A stretch of DNA of 64,000 nt, from contig NZ_FMTP01000001.1 in the NCBI RefSeq assembly GCF_900100155.1, forward strand, positions 496,001-560,000, read 5' to 3'. Both the position numbers and the translations under genes were made by a program. Below the pieces are notes generated by a model. That model did no database searches. It was not told the DNA's origin and saw only the letters and a program-made list of their open reading frames with translations. Position 1 is the stretch's first letter, and the number at the start of each line of letters is the position of its first letter. Positions 5,912-26,686 of this stretch are shown here, piece after piece. The stretch comes from Ancylobacter rudongensis (GTDB lineage Bacteria; Pseudomonadota; Alphaproteobacteria; Rhizobiales; Xanthobacteraceae).

Positions 5912-7402
5912 TCAATCCGCGAGATAGCGCCGGGCGAGATGGGCCTTGAACACGCCGGCATCCAGCGGGCGGCCGGTGGCGCGGGTCAGCAGCTCGTCGG
6001 TGTCGAGCAGCGCGCCCTGCCCATGCACATGGGTGCGCAGCCAGCCGACCAGCGGGGCGAAATCGCCGCGCGCAATGCCCGGCAGCGCGTCCGGTTCGGC
6101 CCGGCAGGCGGCGTCGAACAGCTGGGCGGCGGCTATGGCGCCGAGCGTGTAGGTGGGGAAATAGCCCCAGCCGCCGCTCGGCCAGTGAATGTCCTGCAGG
6201 CAGCCGAGCCGGTCATTGGGCGGCACCGTGCCGAGCAGTTCCTGCATGCCGGCATTCCACGCCGCCGGCAGCTCGGCCAGCGGCATCGCGTCGGCGATCA
6301 GCGCCTTTTCCAGCCGGTAGCGCAGGATGACATGGGCGGGGTAGGTGACCTCATCCGCGTCGACGCGGATGAAGCCGCGCTCGATTCGGGTGTAGCGCCG
6401 CCAGAGCGCGTCCGCCTCCCAGTCCGGCCCGGAGCCATTGAACGCCTCGCGCATCAGCGGCGCGGCAAAGCCGAGGAATTCCCGGGAACGGCAGGCCTGC
6501 ATCTCCATCAGCAGCGACTGGCTTTCATGCAGCACCATGCCGCGCGCCTGCCCGACGGGCTGGCTCATGAAGGCGGCGGGGCGCCCCTGCTCGTACAGCG
6601 CATGGCCGGTCTCGTGGATCACCCCCATCAGCGCCTTGGAGAAGTCGGCCTCGTCATAGCGGGTGGTGATCCGCACGTCGTTATCGGCGCCGCCGCAGAA
6701 GGGGTGGGTGGAGATATCGAGCCGGCCGCGGTCGAAATCATAGCCGAGCGCCGCCATCATCCTTTGCCCGAGGCCGCGCTGGGCCTCGACGGCGAAAGGG
6801 CCGGCAAGCGGGGCGGGCGTGGGTCGGCGGGCCTGCGCCGCCAGCGCCTCTTCGGTGAAGCCCGGCAGGAAGGCGGCGAGATCGTCGAACAGCGCGTCGA
6901 TCGTCGCGGACCGCCCGCCCGGCTCATAATCGTTCAGCAGCGCGTCATAGGGGGAGAGGCCGAGCTTCTCGCCCTTGGCGGCGCCGGCCTCGCGCTGCAG
7001 GCGCAACACCTCGGCGAGATAGGGCAGCAGCGCGGGGAAATCCGCATCGGCGCGCGCCTGCCGCCACGCCATCTCGCAGGCGGAAATCGCCTTGCTGGAG
7101 GCCTCCACCAGATCGGCGGGCAGGGCGGTCTGCGCGGTGAAGACGCGGCGCATCTCGCGCAGATTGGCCTGCTCCCACGTCCCGAGGCTGGCCTCGTCGC
7201 CCGCCGCCTGCAGCCAGTCACCGAGGTGGGGGTCGACCGCCATCTCGTGCTGCATCACCCGCAGCAGAGCGAGGCTTTCCGCCCGGCTGGCGGCGGCGCC
7301 CTGCGGCATCATCGTGTCACTGTCCCATTGCAGGATGCCGATGGCGTTCGACATCGCGCTGATGCGGCCGAAATGGACGGTGAGGGAGGCATAGGCGGAC
7401 AT
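5912..7402 (-). CDS. M32 family metallocarboxypeptidase (Taq/Pfu type)
   Basis: A 496-residue zinc carboxypeptidase that removes C-terminal residues from peptides. The zinc site HETGH is at residues 263-267 and the third ligand is in HESQS at 292-296. Other family marks are DPHLGDW, FCGGADNDVRITTRYDE and the PTYTLGAIAAAQLF block. ATG 7402 (M-S-A-Y-A) starts the family-typical N-terminus although the frame is open upstream. It lies 46 bp downstream of the oxyR-type regulator on the same strand, so readthrough from oxyR is possible. Confidence 0.92.
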   Translation of the reverse strand: MSAYASLTVHFGRISAMSNAIGILQWDSDTMMPQGAAASRAESLALLRVMQHEMAVDPHLGDWLQAAGDEASLGTWEQANLREMRRVFTAQTALPADLVEASSKAISACEMAWRQARADADFPALLPYLAEVLRLQREAGAAKGEKLGLSPYDALLNDYEPGGRSATIDALFDDLAAFLPGFTEEALAAQARRPTPAPLAGPFAVEAQRGLGQRMMAALGYDFDRGRLDISTHPFCGGADNDVRITTRYDEADFSKALMGVIHETGHALYEQGRPAAFMSQPVGQARGMVLHESQSLLMEMQACRSREFLGFAAPLMREAFNGSGPDWEADALWRRYTRIERGFIRVDADEVTYPAHVILRYRLEKALIADAMPLAELPAAWNAGMQELLGTVPPNDRLGCLQDIHWPSGGWGYFPTYTLGAIAAAQLFDAACRAEPDALPGIARGDFAPLVGWLRTHVHGQGALLDTDELLTRATGRPLDAGVFKAHLARRYLAD

Positions 7403-7448: not shown

Positions 7449-8385
7449 CTAGCTGAGGTGCCAATCGGGCGGAACAGCGCTGGCGCCGGCGACGGCGCCC
7501 GCAAGCCCCACCGCGCCGACGATGATCGCCATCTGCTCGAAGGAGCCGGCGAGCGGGTTGGTCCGGCGCCAGACCATGCCGATGGTGCGCGAGGGGCGGG
7601 GTTCCGCCAGCCGCGCCACCGAGACGGCGGCGGAGCGGGTCTCAATGGCCACCGCCATTTGGGGAATGAGCGTGACGCCGATGCCAGCGCCGACCATCTG
7701 CACCAGCGTGGTCAGCGAGCTGCCCTCCATGAGGTCGCGCGGCAGCTGCGAGGCGAGGTTGCAGAAGGAGAGCGCCTGTTCGCGGAAGCAGTGGCCCTCC
7801 TCCAGCAGCAGCAGGCGCATGGTGCGCAGCGTGTCGGGATTGGGCACCGGCAGCGCCGCCTCGTGCAGCGGACGCACCAGGACGAACTCCTCCTCGAACA
7901 GGGCATGCTCGGTCAGCGAGGGCTCGGAGACCGGCAGGGCGACGATGGCGGTGTCGAGCCGACCCTCGACCAGCTCGTCCACCAGCCGCTGCGTCACCGC
8001 TTCGCGAGGCCGCAGGTCGAGCTCGGGGAAGCGTTCGCCCAGGCGCTGCATCACGGCGGGCAGCAGATAGGGGGCGACGGTGGGGATCACGCCGATGCGC
8101 AGCCGGCCGGCGAGCGGGCTGTGCGAGGCGCGGGCGAGCTCCTCCAGTTCATCGACCGCCTGCAGGATGGCACGCGCGCGCTGGGCGAACGCGTCGCCGA
8201 GCCGGGTGAGCCGGATGTTTCGCGTGCCGCGCTCGACCAGCGGCGCGCCGAGGATTTCCTCCAGCTCCTTGATCTGAAGCGACAAAGCCGGCTGGGAAAT
8301 CGAACAGGCCTCGGCGGCCCGGCCGAAATGACCGTGATGAGCCAGCGCCTCGAAATAGCGCAGGTGGCGCATGGAAATGTCTGTC

Positions 8386-8387
<2 letters not shown>
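7449..8387 (-). CDS. oxyR: OxyR-type LysR transcriptional regulator
   Basis: 312 residues with an N-terminal winged helix-turn-helix (about 5-60, RHLRYFEALAHHGHFGRAA) and a periplasmic-binding-protein-like effector domain. The redox pair of OxyR is present: Cys200 in EEGHC and Cys209 in LSFC, nine residues apart exactly as Cys199/Cys208 of E. coli OxyR. It is divergent from katG, so peroxide-activated control of katG is the natural reading. The ATG lies at the edge of a 15-bp palindrome, which suggests autorepression by blocking its own initiation region. Confidence 0.93.
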
Positions 8388-10728
<2,341 letters not shown>

Positions 10729-10881
10729 GGCCGGTTTTCCCCCGCTGCCTTCGGGAGGGCGGGGGAGGCACCAGCGCCGGCCGATGCCGGCCAAAAGCCC
10801 GTTGCGCAAAACGCTGCGGGCTCCTACCCCTTAAACTCCGGGCGGCGCAGGGCGCCCGCACCGGCAGCGAGGGGCATGCGC

Positions 10882-12384
10882 ATGAGTGACCCTGTCCTCA
10901 TCGTCGGGGCCGGCCCGGTCGGGCTGGTGATGGCGCTTGAACTGGCGCGCTACCAAGTGCCGGTACGCATCGTCGACGCCATGACCGAGCGGGCGACCAC
11001 CTCGCGCGCAGTGGCGATCTGGCCTCGCACGCTGGAGCTGATGGAGCGCGGCGGCGACGGGCTTTCCGCCGAGCTGGTCGGGCTCGGCAACAAGGTGACG
11101 GCCGCCAACATGCTGGCCGACGGCAAGCACCTGGCCCGGGTGCCGCTCGACGAGATCGAAACCCCCTATCCCTTTGTGCTGATGCTGCCGCAGAGCGAGA
11201 CCGAGCGGGTCCTGCTGGCGCATCTGCAGGCGCGCGGCGTCGAGCCGGAGCTCGGCGTCTCGCTCGCGGACTTCACCCAGGAGGGGGAGGTCGTCACCGC
11301 CACGCTGCGCCAGGCGGACGGGAGCGAGGCGACCGCCCGCTATGCCGCGCTGGTGGCCTGCGACGGCGCCCACAGCCCGGTGCGGCACCGGCTCGGCCTC
11401 GTTTTCGAGGGCGACACGCTGGGCAGCGACTGGGCGCAGGGCGATTTCCATCTCTCGGGCCTGCCGTTCCCGGTGAACGAATTCGCCACCTGCCTGCACG
11501 CGGAAGGCCCGGCGGTTCTGTTTCCGCTGGCGCCGGGCCGCTGTCGCGTCATTGTCGGCCTCGGACCGTCCACCACCGATGCTCCGCCGCCGCCGCCCGA
11601 CAGGGCCGGCTTCCAGGCGCTGCTGGACCGGCGCGGGCCGGGCGGCATCACCCTGCACGACACGCTGTGGTCGACCTCCTTCCGCATCAATGAGCGGCAG
11701 GTGGAGAACTACCGGGTCGGGCGCGTCTTCCTCGCCGGCGATGCCGCCCATGTGCACAGCCCGGCCGGCGGGCAGGGCATGAACACCGGCATGCAGGACG
11801 CGGTGAACCTCGCGTGGAAGCTGGCGCTGGTGCTGCGCGGGCTCGCCACCGCGCCGGTGCTGCTTGACAGCTACGACCCTGAGCGGCGCGCGGTGGGGGC
11901 GGAGGTGATCGCCACGTCAGGCCGTCTGACCCGGCTGGCGACGCTGAAGAACCCGCTCGCCCGCCATATCCGCAACACGGTGATGCCGGCCGTGCTCGGG
12001 CTGGCGCCGGTGCGGCACAAGCTGGAAGGCGACCTCACCGAGACCGCGATCCACTACCGCGACAGCCCGCTCAACGGCATCTCCTGGGGTGCCGGCCCGC
12101 GCGCCGGCGATCGCATGCTGCCGGCCGACGGCGAGCCGCCCTATGGGGTCGGCGACACGCCGCGCTTCACCCTGCGCGCCGGGCCCGGCGCCGGGGCGCC
12201 GCCCGGCGATCTGCCCGCCGCGCTGGTCTACCCCATGGTGCGCCCGCACGCGGTGGCTGGCGGCATCCAGCTGATCCGGCCGGACGGCTATCTCGCCTTG
12301 TCGGTTGCGGAAGGGGAATGGGCGCCGATCACGGACTATCTCGCGCGCCTCGGCCCGGCCCGATCCAAAGGGGTGTCCGCATGA
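10882..12384 (+). CDS. FAD-dependent aromatic-ring monooxygenase (PheA/TfdB-type)
   Basis: 500 residues of a class A flavoprotein hydroxylase. The FAD dinucleotide fold is VGAGPVGL near the N-terminus, the DG motif is ACDGAHSPVR and the second FAD motif is FLAGDAAHVHSPAGGQGMN. A C-terminal thioredoxin-like segment follows, as in phenol hydroxylase relatives. ATG 10882 is preferred to ATG 10876 because the GAGGGG ribosome site at 10869-10874 is seven bases before it. The stop overlaps the cupin start (ATGA), so the two are coupled. The aromatic substrate is unknown and no ring-cleavage gene is nearby. Confidence 0.88.
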   Translation: MSDPVLIVGAGPVGLVMALELARYQVPVRIVDAMTERATTSRAVAIWPRTLELMERGGDGLSAELVGLGNKVTAANMLADGKHLARVPLDEIETPYPFVLMLPQSETERVLLAHLQARGVEPELGVSLADFTQEGEVVTATLRQADGSEATARYAALVACDGAHSPVRHRLGLVFEGDTLGSDWAQGDFHLSGLPFPVNEFATCLHAEGPAVLFPLAPGRCRVIVGLGPSTTDAPPPPPDRAGFQALLDRRGPGGITLHDTLWSTSFRINERQVENYRVGRVFLAGDAAHVHSPAGGQGMNTGMQDAVNLAWKLALVLRGLATAPVLLDSYDPERRAVGAEVIATSGRLTRLATLKNPLARHIRNTVMPAVLGLAPVRHKLEGDLTETAIHYRDSPLNGISWGAGPRAGDRMLPADGEPPYGVGDTPRFTLRAGPGAGAPPGDLPAALVYPMVRPHAVAGGIQLIRPDGYLALSVAEGEWAPITDYLARLGPARSKGVSA

Positions 12385-12818
12385 GCGTGTCCTTCCTGCT
12401 GTCACGCGGCGACGAGCCGCCGATCAAGATCCCGGCGATCGGGCTCGACCTGTTCGTCCGCCTGCCGCCCGCGATCAGCGGCGGCGAGTTCTGCTTCATC
12501 GAGACCATCAACGCCCCCGGCGCCGGCCCGCCGCGCCACCGGCACCGCGAGGCGGAGATTTTTCGCGTGCTCGAAGGGCGTTATCTCTACGAGGTCGACG
12601 GGCGGCGCTTCTTCGCGCAGGCCGGCGACGTGGTGAGCATTCCCGGCTGGGCGGCGCATGGCTTCGTCAATGTCACCGACGCACCGGCCCGCCAGTATAT
12701 CCTCATGGCCCCGGCGCTGGACGCGGTCGCCTTCTTCACCGAACTCGCCGGGGTGATGCGTGACGGCCTGCCCGACACCGCCGCGCTGAACGCTACACCT
12801 ACTGCACGGTGGGTGTGA
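12381..12818 (+). CDS. cupin domain protein, apparently altered at its C-terminus
   Basis: 145 residues with a single cupin barrel: motif 1 is PRHRHREAEIFRVLEGRY with metal ligands His/His/Glu, and motif 2 is PGWAAHGFVN. The ATG is coupled to the monooxygenase stop, so it probably acts in the same pathway. The end is odd: after GLPDTAALNA the last residues TPTARWV do not continue like a normal cupin tail, and the stop falls inside the neighbouring IPT-repeat coding sequence in another frame. I infer that the native 3' end was replaced at a junction near 12790. The barrel itself is complete, so the protein may still work. Confidence 0.8.
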   Translation: MSVSFLLSRGDEPPIKIPAIGLDLFVRLPPAISGGEFCFIETINAPGAGPPRHRHREAEIFRVLEGRYLYEVDGRRFFAQAGDVVSIPGWAAHGFVNVTDAPARQYILMAPALDAVAFFTELAGVMRDGLPDTAALNATPTARWV

Positions 12819-14044
12819 CCGGGCTGCAGCCGCCGGCGGGACCAGCGGGAACATCTGTGCAGATCACCGGGGAGGGCTTTGGCACGAACCCCTCCGTGGC
12901 CTTCGGCGGGGTGGCCGCCACCGGCGTGTCCGTTAACAGCGCGGGCACGCAGATCGTCTGCACCGCTCCGGCCGGCAAGGGCGCGGTCAATGTGTCGGTG
13001 ACGGCGAGCGGGGCGACCAGCCCGGCCGTCGAGGCCAGCCGCTACTGCTATGCCCCGGTTCTCACCGCGCTTTCCAACTACACCGGCAAGCCGCTCATCA
13101 CCCAGGTCACCCTTATCGGCGAGGGCTTCATCGCGCAGTCGGTGATGTTCGGCGCCTTGTCTGCCCGGCAGGTCCAGCCCTCGACGACAAGCTCGGTCAC
13201 CGTGTGGGCGCCGGTCACTCTCGGCCGGGTGCCGGTGGTCGTCATGACCCCGGGTGGCACAAGCAATGCGCTGGACTTTACCTATGTGCCGGCGGTGCTC
13301 TCGATCACGCCGAGCTATGGCACCCAGGGAACGGTCGTGCGGATCGTCGGGGCGGGGCTGAGCGTGGATGGCCAGCCGCTCAACGTGCAGAGCGTGACCT
13401 TCGGCATCACCCCTGCGCTCAATGTCTGGACCAAGGGCACCGATGAGGTATGGGCGGAGGTTCCCGCAGGGGCCGGAACCGTTCCGGTGGTCGTCAAGAC
13501 CGCCGGCGGCAGTACCGCCAATTGGAGCGGGGCGCTTTTTGGCGGCGCGCCTGCCGGCGGCACGCCGCTGAAGATCACCGGCAGCGGCTTCACCGGCGCG
13601 ACCGCCGTGATGTTCGACGGTGTCCCCGGCCTCTATCTGAACGTGCCGAACGACAATGAACTCACCGTCACCACCCCTCCCGGGACCGGGGAAGTGCCCG
13701 TCGTCGTCCGGCTCCCGCTGGCTGTGAGCGGGCCGCATGAAGGCGCGACCTTCACCTACGGGCCGGTGGTCAAAAGCCTCGATCCCAACAGCCTTTCCGT
13801 GCAGCGGAACGGGCGTGTGTGGATCACTGGCAAGGGCCTCGACAGGATCCTCTCCATCGACTTTTGCGGCACCCGCTATGGCGCGGAGACCTATGGCACC
13901 TGGTGGGCGCACGGTATGCTGAACGGCGCGCGCACCGTCCATCTGCAGGCGACGCCGCCGACGGACGGTCCCGGCACCTATGACGTCACCGTCACCACGC
14001 CGGAGGGCACCAGCGCGCCGGTGAGCTTCACCTGGACCACGTAG
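12809..14044 (+). CDS. IPT/TIG-repeat protein, probably missing its 5' part
   Basis: 411 residues made of four to five immunoglobulin-like IPT/TIG domains: each begins with a pattern such as VTGLQPPAGPAGTSVQITGEGF, with further repeats at LSITPSYGTQGTVVRIVGAGL, GGTPLKITGSGF and VKSLDPNSLSVQ. Such domains form rods on surface or tail-fibre-like proteins. There is no signal peptide, no ribosome site before GTG 12809, and the frame is open back to 12764 where RYTYCTV resembles the end of a preceding IPT domain. These points suggest the start has been lost by rearrangement against the cupin gene. The tail-collar gene follows after 155 bp. Confidence 0.65.
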   Translation: MGVTGLQPPAGPAGTSVQITGEGFGTNPSVAFGGVAATGVSVNSAGTQIVCTAPAGKGAVNVSVTASGATSPAVEASRYCYAPVLTALSNYTGKPLITQVTLIGEGFIAQSVMFGALSARQVQPSTTSSVTVWAPVTLGRVPVVVMTPGGTSNALDFTYVPAVLSITPSYGTQGTVVRIVGAGLSVDGQPLNVQSVTFGITPALNVWTKGTDEVWAEVPAGAGTVPVVVKTAGGSTANWSGALFGGAPAGGTPLKITGSGFTGATAVMFDGVPGLYLNVPNDNELTVTTPPGTGEVPVVVRLPLAVSGPHEGATFTYGPVVKSLDPNSLSVQRNGRVWITGKGLDRILSIDFCGTRYGAETYGTWWAHGMLNGARTVHLQATPPTDGPGTYDVTVTTPEGTSAPVSFTWTT

Positions 14045-14054
14045 AGCTCTTCCC

Positions 14055-14076
14055 GATCAGGTGGAAGCACCTGATC
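14055..14076. repeat. 9-bp-stem palindrome
   Basis: GATCAGGTG (14055-14063) and its complement CACCTGATC (14068-14076) flank the loop GAAG. It lies just after the IPT-protein stop; without a T-run it is not a clear terminator and may be a REP-type element. Confidence 0.75.
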
Positions 14077-14108
14077 CGGAAGAAAGTGAGCGTTAGTCAA
14101 TAAGTTAA

Positions 14109-14154
14109 AGCGTTTTCTCGTCGCGAACGTCTGTCAATCTTCGCGGAAAACGCT
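14109..14154. repeat. long interrupted inverted repeat
   Basis: AGCGTTTTC (14109-14117) pairs with GAAAACGCT (14146-14154), and inside it CGCGA (14122-14126) pairs with TCGCG (14141-14145). The two nested arms make a stem of 14 bp with an internal bulge. Confidence 0.75.
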
Positions 14155-14199
14155 CCAGACACCACAGGCGGCCGCGCCGCCCGCCCGGGGGGAGACCGC

Positions 14200-14817
14200 A
14201 TGGAAAGCTATATCGGCGAGGTGCGTGCCTTCGCCTTCGGATTCGCTCCCCAGGGCAATGACGAGGAATGGGCAATCTGCGACGGCTCCTCGCTTTTGAT
14301 TACCGAGCATGCCGCCCTTTACGCGGTGATCGGCGAAGCCTTCGGCACGGCGGGGCCCGGCACGTTTCACCTGCCGAACCTGATGGGGCGGGCGGTGGTC
14401 GGCGTGGGGAAGAACCCGAACACGCCCCGCTACGCCGTCGGCCGGCCGGTCGGGGCGGCGGCCCTGACGGTGACATCCGTGCCCGCCCACAACCATGTGC
14501 TCACCGGCGCGGTGGTGGTAAGCGCGCCCTATCCCGGCCTGACCGACACGCCGTCGCCGACCGCGCGGCTGTCGCGGGCGACGCGGCGAAACACGCAGAA
14601 CCCGGCGAGCCCGGGCACGTTCTCGCGCGCCTATGCGCCCGATGATGGCGAGGACGACACCGTCCTCGGCGCCGCCACGCTGTCGCCGGTCGGCGGGACG
14701 GCACAGCCGCATGAAAACCGGCAGCCCTATCTCGCCGTCACCTATTGCATCTGCACGCAAGGCGCCTTCCCGGTGCCCCCGATCGCGCCGGAACCGCCGG
14801 CCGCCATCGATTCCTGA
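14200..14817 (+). CDS. phage tail-collar / microcystin-dependent-type protein
   Basis: 205 residues. The N-terminus [17 protein letters not shown] followed by [32 protein letters not shown] and SVPAHNHVL is the tail-collar (PF07484) domain, and the ending [16 protein letters not shown] is typical of the microcystin-dependent (Mdp) branch. A G-rich ribosome site (GGGGGGAG) precedes ATG 14200. Tail-collar proteins form short tail fibre tips in phages; bacterial Mdp paralogues are of unknown function. No other phage structural gene is present, so a prophage is not supported. It pairs with the IPT-repeat protein upstream. Confidence 0.85.
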
Positions 14818-14882: not shown

Positions 14883-14897
14883 GAACATATTGCGAAC
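14883..14897. promoter_or_regulatory. SOS (LexA) box upstream of recA
   Basis: GAAC (14883-14886), seven bases ATATTGC, then GAAC (14894-14897): the direct-repeat GAAC-N7-GAAC form recognised by alphaproteobacterial LexA. It lies 77 bp before the recA start. A further GAAC is at 14901. Confidence 0.9.
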
Positions 14898-14974: not shown

Positions 14975-16051
<1,077 letters not shown>

Positions 16052-26156: not shown

Positions 26157-26686
26157 CGTCGGGGCGGCTTCCCCATGAGGATGCCAGCATCCGCCGCATG
26201 AGCGTCCTGCCGCTGGAGCCGAATGACGAGGGAGCCATCCAGCGTGCCCGCCACAGGACACTTGAAACCACCGCCCCGCTGTGGTCGATGGTGCCGGCGT
26301 CAGCATGCCCGCTGCGGCACCCTGATCAGCAAGGTCCGCGCCGGGCGGCACGCTGACGGCCAAAGACAGCCTCACCAGCTGGTGGGACACGATCTGGTTA
26401 ATGGAAGTGAAGTGCACATGAGTGGAAATAAAGTGAGCGTCATCCGGAAGATCTGGCGCGCGCCGCAGCTGAAGGTCATCGGTCTGCCTGTCGCGACACT
26501 ACAGTTTAACGGTGGCGCGGGGGATGCCACCACCGGCAGCTGAGGTGCCTCTGGCGCGTCTGCCCAAGGTCCCGGGCGGGTGTTCCACAGCCGCCCTTGT
26601 GTGTCACACGGTCGTCTTCACCGTGCCTCTGCGAACTTCCCGCAAGCTGGCCGGGTCACGCGGGCTGTATCCAGCTCTCTCGTACA
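26157..26686. other. segment between the two terminator copies
   Basis: 530 bases with one candidate gene, the 41-codon peptide at 26418. The remainder has no open frame that resembles a protein family on either strand and may hold the decayed remains of coding DNA. GTGTGTCACAC-like and GGCGG...CCGCC dyads occur after the peptide stop. Confidence 0.5.
26418..26543 (+). CDS. small peptide with lasso-leader-like WxxPxL motif (candidate RiPP precursor)
   Basis: A 41-residue open frame beginning MSGNKVSVIRK and ending NGGAGDATTGS. Its centre reads W-RA-P-Q-L-KVI-G-LPVA-T, close to the (Y/W)xxPxLxxxG...T leader pattern that B1-type recognition proteins bind in lasso-peptide precursors. The glycine-rich tail contains an Asp, but the possible core is very short and no cyclase, protease or recognition-element gene is nearby. 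The ribosome site is weak (GGAAG about ten bases before ATG). I cannot show that it is expressed; it may be an orphan leader, a relic, or a chance frame. Confidence 0.4.
   Translation: MSGNKVSVIRKIWRAPQLKVIGLPVATLQFNGGAGDATTGS

Follow-up and report, generated by a model that had tools for sequence, protein, structure and literature searches.

The locus studied here lies in a window of 64,000 nucleotides, the whole stretch of Ancylobacter rudongensis DNA that was analysed. Its features are the following:

10876..12384, + strand: FAD-dependent monooxygenase-like gene (PF01494), overlapped by the cupin start as ATGA
12381..12818, + strand: cupin gene without its own 3' end, native to 12794, then seven foreign residues (TPTARWV) and a stop
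12792..12794, + strand: very probable deletion junction, GCT, a triplet found at both ends in the relative G020 (locus L031, 6738-6740 and 12584-12586)
12794..14044, + strand: probable 3' remnant of a collar-IPT/TIG fusion gene, in its native frame from TAC 12794, with possible starts at GTG 12809 and GTG 12815 and four Pfam TIG stretches
14200..14817, + strand: separate, intact Phage Tail Collar gene of 205 aa (PF07484, E 1.2e-17), with counterparts at L031 13981-14595 and L032 6233-6874
14883..14897, + strand: GAAC-N7-GAAC, which we take to be SOS-box-like, shortly ahead of recA and close behind the end of the island
14975..16051, + strand: presumably recA (named from its protein sequence), the right flank of the island, at 96.3% nucleotide identity to G020 over 14990-16051

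The first-pass annotation had described a cupin that ends with TPTARWV and a stop inside IPT coding sequence of another frame, and the open reading frames confirm it: the CDS at 12381-12818 has a Cupin_2 match (E 8.8e-18, Pfam) and the C terminus LNA-TPTARWV-stop. The open IPT frame reaches back to 12764 and does read RYTYCTV ahead of the first visible IPT domain, as had been noticed; the two intact orthologues described below both read YTY there. It could start at GTG 12809, or at GTG 12815, where start and cupin stop overlap as GTGA. Since the cupin and IPT frames differ, no cupin-IPT fusion protein would be made. The IPT/TIG match itself is strong (PF01833, four stretches, E 2.9e-33, 114.2 bits against a gathering score of 20.9), and Pfam found TIG families only in the remnant, with no Phage Tail Collar domain (PF07484). 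A promoter and terminator scan gave nothing above shuffled sequences. Among ORF lists and Pfam matches, no other phage gene was recognised between the cupin and recA, either in the window or in G020. Bacterial collar proteins are presumably the "microcystin-dependent" proteins; a search of the window's collar gene against solved structures found no relative (best E 0.32). The intergenic segment at 14042-14158 (117 bp) is 79% identical to L031 1281-1397, another place in the relative, and had no other match in the DNA compared.

Comparison with G020 (Xanthobacteraceae bacterium 501b) places the break precisely. By blastn, positions 8000-12794 match at 90.5% and positions 12792-14037 at 64%, the latter 5.85 kb further along G020. 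The homology switches sharply at 12792-12794, and the window has 5,846 bp fewer than G020. Left of the junction, G020 reads LNAFGAKWQVEFLGPPVRASDGAT; right of it, G016 reads YTYCTVGIAGLEPAAGPAGTSV (at the start of the window's native part) and G020 YTYAQLAVTGLQPAAGPPGTVV, with YTYCTVGVTGLQPPAGPAGTSV in the window. The IPT frame starts at the YTY position of both intact orthologues, about 807 codons into the G020 gene. The gene order in G020 is a cupin with a normal tail, a small peptide ORF, an Asn-synthase-like gene, an ORF, the collar-IPT gene, the collar gene and recA, the collar-IPT gene being whole and lying 3.4 kb beyond the cupin stop. Its large protein has 1,239 aa, with two Collar and eight TIG stretches, and that of G016, in a frame of 1,266 aa, has two Collar and seven TIG stretches (Pfam). 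One of these orthologues begins MAEAYIGEIRMF and the other MEPYIGAVSMF, after a possible upstream TTG. The proposal of a larger, tail-fibre-like parent protein was thus borne out, the lost front corresponding to the two Phage Tail Collar domains of the intact orthologues. The same annotation had pointed to the absence of a ribosome site and of a signal peptide. By eye we too see no ribosome site; the signal peptide is indeed absent, but this is no evidence of truncation, because the intact orthologues show none evident either (by eye).

The stretch present in G020 and missing from the window holds a 71-aa ORF (L031 6882-7097), the 630-aa Asn-synthase-like protein (matching Asn_synthase at E 3.1e-26 and GATase_7 at E 1.8e-13), a 268-aa ORF, sulfotransferase-like by eye, with no Pfam or NCBIfam match, and the beginning of the collar-IPT gene. 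At the G016 recA locus we found the collars and a 50-aa ORF resembling the 71-aa one, and no Asn-synthase-like gene beside the collars. Among 61 genomes, including the window's own, the IPT region matched in four: the genome itself, G016 (63%), G020 (57%) and, weakly, a single place in G001. The last was set aside, as by eye it resembles an unrelated autotransporter-type protein, in a region (L037) that shares a single 68-bp match and none to the window's flanks. G016 and G020 were again the only close orthologues of the IPT part among 391 genomes. Related genomes had been expected to tell a short IPT gene from a truncated one, and both close orthologues lie in open frames of 1,240 aa (G020) and 1,281 aa (G016). 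Cupin matches occur in 42 of the 61 genomes and are mostly weakly similar cupins; 14 non-self matches reach E 7.5e-39 or better. Thirteen of these 14 loci had a readable tail (L023 did not), and all 13 keep FGxxWxVEFLGxP, so that no cupin with TPTARWV was seen.

Seven loci of relatives were read and compared with the window by blastn. In G026, G028 and G013, the match to the recA flank follows about 100-280 bp after the cupin match, which leaves no island. In G016 the monooxygenase match ends at 12366, the collar-IPT gene is whole, and the cupin search of the 61 genomes found no close cupin. In G029 the monooxygenase and cupin match, and neither flank matches within the 12 kb read. The flanking genes are much closer to G020 (recA 96.3%, katG 95.4%) than the island is. 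Four gene trees of six rows each do not place the window firmly: the pair of G020 and the island-free G026 is starred on katG and alaS, the starred split of the recA tree only separates G016 and G013 from the other four, and the alaS tree groups the window and G016 together (92/97, not starred). Judged from these comparisons, the island is patchy and changes fast. Its genes diverged far more (57-63% amino acid identity in the remnant) than recA (96% nucleotide identity to G020), which makes it uncertain what exactly the ancestor contained.

We are highly confident that the locus is a deletion scar, in which the end of the cupin was clipped and the front of the collar-IPT gene was cut away. The earlier reading had left a choice between a deletion and an insertion that joined two genes; the deletion is supported by G020, in which both genes are whole, in the same order, with DNA between them. 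The colinear flanks, the sharp switch of homology, the presence of both halves whole in one relative and the failure to find the missing parts elsewhere in the assembly are all observed. The deletion would have taken the last 21 codons of the cupin, all the DNA between the genes and about the first 807 codons of the collar-IPT fusion gene. It probably arose by illegitimate recombination at a microhomology of 2-3 bp (GCT), a call that lets G020 represent the lost ancestor; with G016 in that role, the microhomology is CT only. If the ancestor had the gene content of G020, 5.85 kb would have been lost; if it resembled G016 around the big gene, the loss would be at least about 2.5 kb (the 5' part and the cupin tail). 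The size is thus most likely between about 2.5 and 5.8 kb, with roughly the front two thirds of the large gene gone. The parent protein was most likely beta-rich, a surface or secreted fibre-like protein with collar heads followed by an IPT/TIG stalk, to judge from its domains and neighbours.

Could the two sequences have been joined in the computer rather than in the cell? An assembly chimera would have falsely united distant sequences at 12792-12794. We consider this very improbable: G020 has the same gene order and orientation with extra DNA between, the junction is deep within a 1.09-Mb contig, and 3 bp should be too short for a graph-based misjoin. A false join should also leave the missing parts somewhere else in the assembly. 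Protein-level searches at E 0.001 of the 18 contigs, the only genome of the species compared, did not find the missing parts elsewhere, and gave one IPT place, one cupin and, for the collar and Asn-synthase-like genes, the matches described below. The single cupin also bears on the idea that an IPT fragment from elsewhere was inserted into the cupin gene, which would leave the cupin's 3' end somewhere. The patchy presence of the island among close relatives and the divergence of its genes would suit such an arrival, but the fragment is followed by the collar gene and then recA, just as in G020 and G016, and we give this explanation hardly any credence.

A more serious alternative accepts the truncation and supposes that the shortened IPT protein is still made and used, with a re-start at GTG 12815 that would add it to the monooxygenase-cupin unit as a third cistron. 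The frame is open for 411 codons from GTG 12809, GC content by codon position is coding-like, and the GTGA overlap with the cupin stop is what such a cistron could have. The remnant is 63.1% identical in amino acids to G016 and 57.4% to G020, which are 55.3% identical to each other, and over 411 codons the lineage-specific changes at the three codon positions number 39/37/60 in the window, 50/35/83 in G016 and 59/58/87 in G020. This test gave no clear sign of decay over these codons, the pattern being like that of intact orthologues; a recent scar would look alike. Against continued use stand the lack of a ribosome site by eye, the loss of both collar domains and an in-frame gap of 12 residues (with 7 more absent elsewhere) that takes the start of one TIG domain kept by both orthologues. 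We regard a functional short protein as unlikely. Having lost its start and both collar domains, the remnant is most likely a recently made pseudogene that keeps its native frame. Structure predictions from two-row alignments were too poor to use (mean pLDDT 45.9 for the remnant and 27.0 for the collar gene).

Collar genes persist elsewhere in this genome: of its four collar places, three lie at another locus, at 960-961 kb of the contig that carries the window. This second, whole collar cluster (L064, G000:C7:948000-967000, at 7905-14299) includes genes for an HPr-kinase-like protein, a sulfotransferase, an Asn-synthase-like protein, an acetyltransferase and a 51-aa W-x-x-P peptide with a C-terminal Ser, as well as three collar genes. 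The Asn-synthase-like matches in the genome have 30-31% identity only, and none lies within the window. A small orphan ORF of the window, MSGNKVSVIRKIWRAPQLKVIGLPVATLQFNGGAGDATTGS at 26418-26543 (+ strand), has the look of a W-x-x-P peptide with a C-terminal Ser.

The association of IPT and collar sequences extends beyond this genus. In a family survey of 391 genomes, the IPT profile matched in 56 and the collar family in 132, and places were compared among the matches listed. Outside the genus, 33 genomes had listed IPT places; 6 had no collar match and 5 had collar matches without listed places, leaving 22 that could be compared. In 17 of these 22 genomes of other genera, an IPT and a collar match are 0.87-1.67 kb apart (coordinates compared by hand, among the matches listed); the two are on different contigs in 4 and 150 kb apart in G407. 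Seven IPT places were read, chosen from the stronger matches, and five (L118, L119, L120, L122 and L123) have an IPT ORF of 1,350-2,101 aa oriented divergently to a collar triad and an acetyltransferase-like gene. Of the other two, the L121 contig ends too soon and L124 has no collar. Pfam finds 16 TIG stretches in L118 and 9 in L122, and no autotransporter domain in either protein; by eye, their termini resemble a signal peptide and an outer-membrane barrel. Because IPT and collar genes are often adjacent elsewhere, the gene at the recA locus is a fusion of two recurring neighbours. The adjacency speaks for the two acting together at the cell surface, without proving it. At another locus (L138, 28-12503), a collar triad lies beside genes for a Calx-beta/LapA-type protein, HlyD and an ABC (C39) exporter, which suggests secreted partners of another kind.

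Within the genus, the collar genes have a second set of neighbours. We surveyed collar and Asn-synthase-like matches in 14 relatives holding the cupin or IPT gene and in the window's own genome, setting aside four weak partial collar matches; collar and synthase genes in the loci were annotated by phmmer. Collar triads occur in 6 of the 15 genomes, and an Asn-synthase-like match lies at a distance of 0.5-0.7 kb from every one of the seven triads. Among the nine genomes without triads, seven have no such match and two have weak ones only. At the recA loci, G020 has one 1.1 kb from the collar and G016 none, and several further matches are not near any triad. Each of the seven triad clusters (L064, L108-L113) also carries genes of kinase-like, sulfotransferase-like and acetyltransferase-like type; for Hpr_kinase_C, L064's kinase-like protein reaches 30.7, just below the Pfam cut-off of 33.3. 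Each of these clusters has small W-x-x-P ORFs with a C-terminal Ser, as do the G020 and G016 recA loci, in a scan where 32 of 1,895 small ORFs from 20 sources had this pattern, several plainly by chance. In L031, the 6882-7097 ORF has WSLPVL, with Trp for the Tyr of the motif YxxPxL given for lasso precursor leaders (PMC10368454). Homologues of HPr kinase are reported to phosphorylate the C-terminal Ser of lasso precursors (PMC8498205). The lasso cyclase model NF033535 gave scores of 197 (197.4 bits, G020 recA locus) and 233, far below its cut-off of 525, and among ORFs of at least 150 aa no B protein (RRE plus protease) was recognised at the G020 recA locus. In G016, the gap at 7057-7483 of L109, between the collar triad and the Asn-synthase-like gene, holds an open frame like a PqqD-type (RRE) protein by eye.

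A general link between collar and lasso-like genes was considered and rejected, since only 3 of 45 collar loci in a phylum-wide sample (L141, L146 and L148) have an Asn-synthase-like ORF. L146 and L147 belong to the window's genus, and outside it the count is 2 of 43 loci. L140 and L147 have kinase-like and sulfotransferase-like ORFs without an Asn-synthase-like one, and L171-L173 have none of the reference genes. Collar triads beside lasso-cyclase-like genes and small W-x-x-P peptides ending in Ser are seen in the window's genus; outside it, on the loci compared, the link to Asn-synthase-like genes is rare. Two loci of G009, L146 and L147, have long collar ORFs of 559 and 426 aa, together with kinase-like and sulfotransferase-like ORFs. 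Short collar-like ORFs (139-140 aa) lie beside Asn-synthase-like genes at L114 and L117, in G016 and G026, and these are possibly further decaying clusters.

Taken alone, the scar is ordinary, a further deletion within a patchy island next to recA. Its value lies in where it points. The gene that was damaged is a member of a little-described family of phage-tail-like proteins of bacteria, which have ties to giant IPT/TIG proteins, their neighbours in many genomes and fused to them here, and in the window's genus to lasso-like peptide genes as well. These ties make the role of widespread tail-like bacterial proteins testable. As a tentative proposal, which we hold as no better than a possible one, the scar could be all that remains of one branch of a bacterial surface system not yet described. 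Such a system would combine collar triads, resembling the heads of phage short tail fibres, with a giant IPT/TIG stalk protein (fused here) and an acetyltransferase, and some lineages would add a lasso-type peptide whose C-terminal Ser is modified; this genome would have lost this copy and kept the second, whole collar/lasso-like cluster. Among the matches listed in a search of titles and abstract openings of the open-licence literature, no paper paired collar or microcystin-dependent proteins with lasso peptides, RiPPs, TIG or autotransporters.

The closest known counterparts of the remnant are the large collar-IPT proteins of G020 (L031/L067) and G016, 57% and 63% identical over the IPT part and likewise followed by the collar gene and recA. 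They are whole, with two N-terminal collar domains and eight or seven TIG stretches, whereas the window keeps the last part only. Among phage proteins, the short tail fibre of T4 (PDB 1ocy) matches the second collar domain of the G020 protein (E 0.003), and minor tail proteins match its collar part. The phage likeness is partial: matches were found in 338 phage records, of which not one spans 80% of the protein and the best ten cover 27%; moreover, the window's locus is flanked by ordinary chromosomal genes. In the G020 protein, the IPT/TIG part matches the solved domains of plexins and the HGF receptor (best E 9.2e-06), but these are animal receptors that have only the domain type in common with it. 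Paeninodin-type lasso clusters with an HPr-kinase-like gene (PMC8498205) resemble the clusters seen here in the protein with Asn-synthase and glutamine amidotransferase domains and in the W-x-x-P peptide ending in Ser and, at loci other than recA, also in the HPr-kinase-like and sulfotransferase genes. They differ in that here the cyclase and Hpr_kinase_C scores fall below their cut-offs, no B protein was recognised at the recA locus, Trp stands for Tyr in the leader motif, and collar proteins are present.
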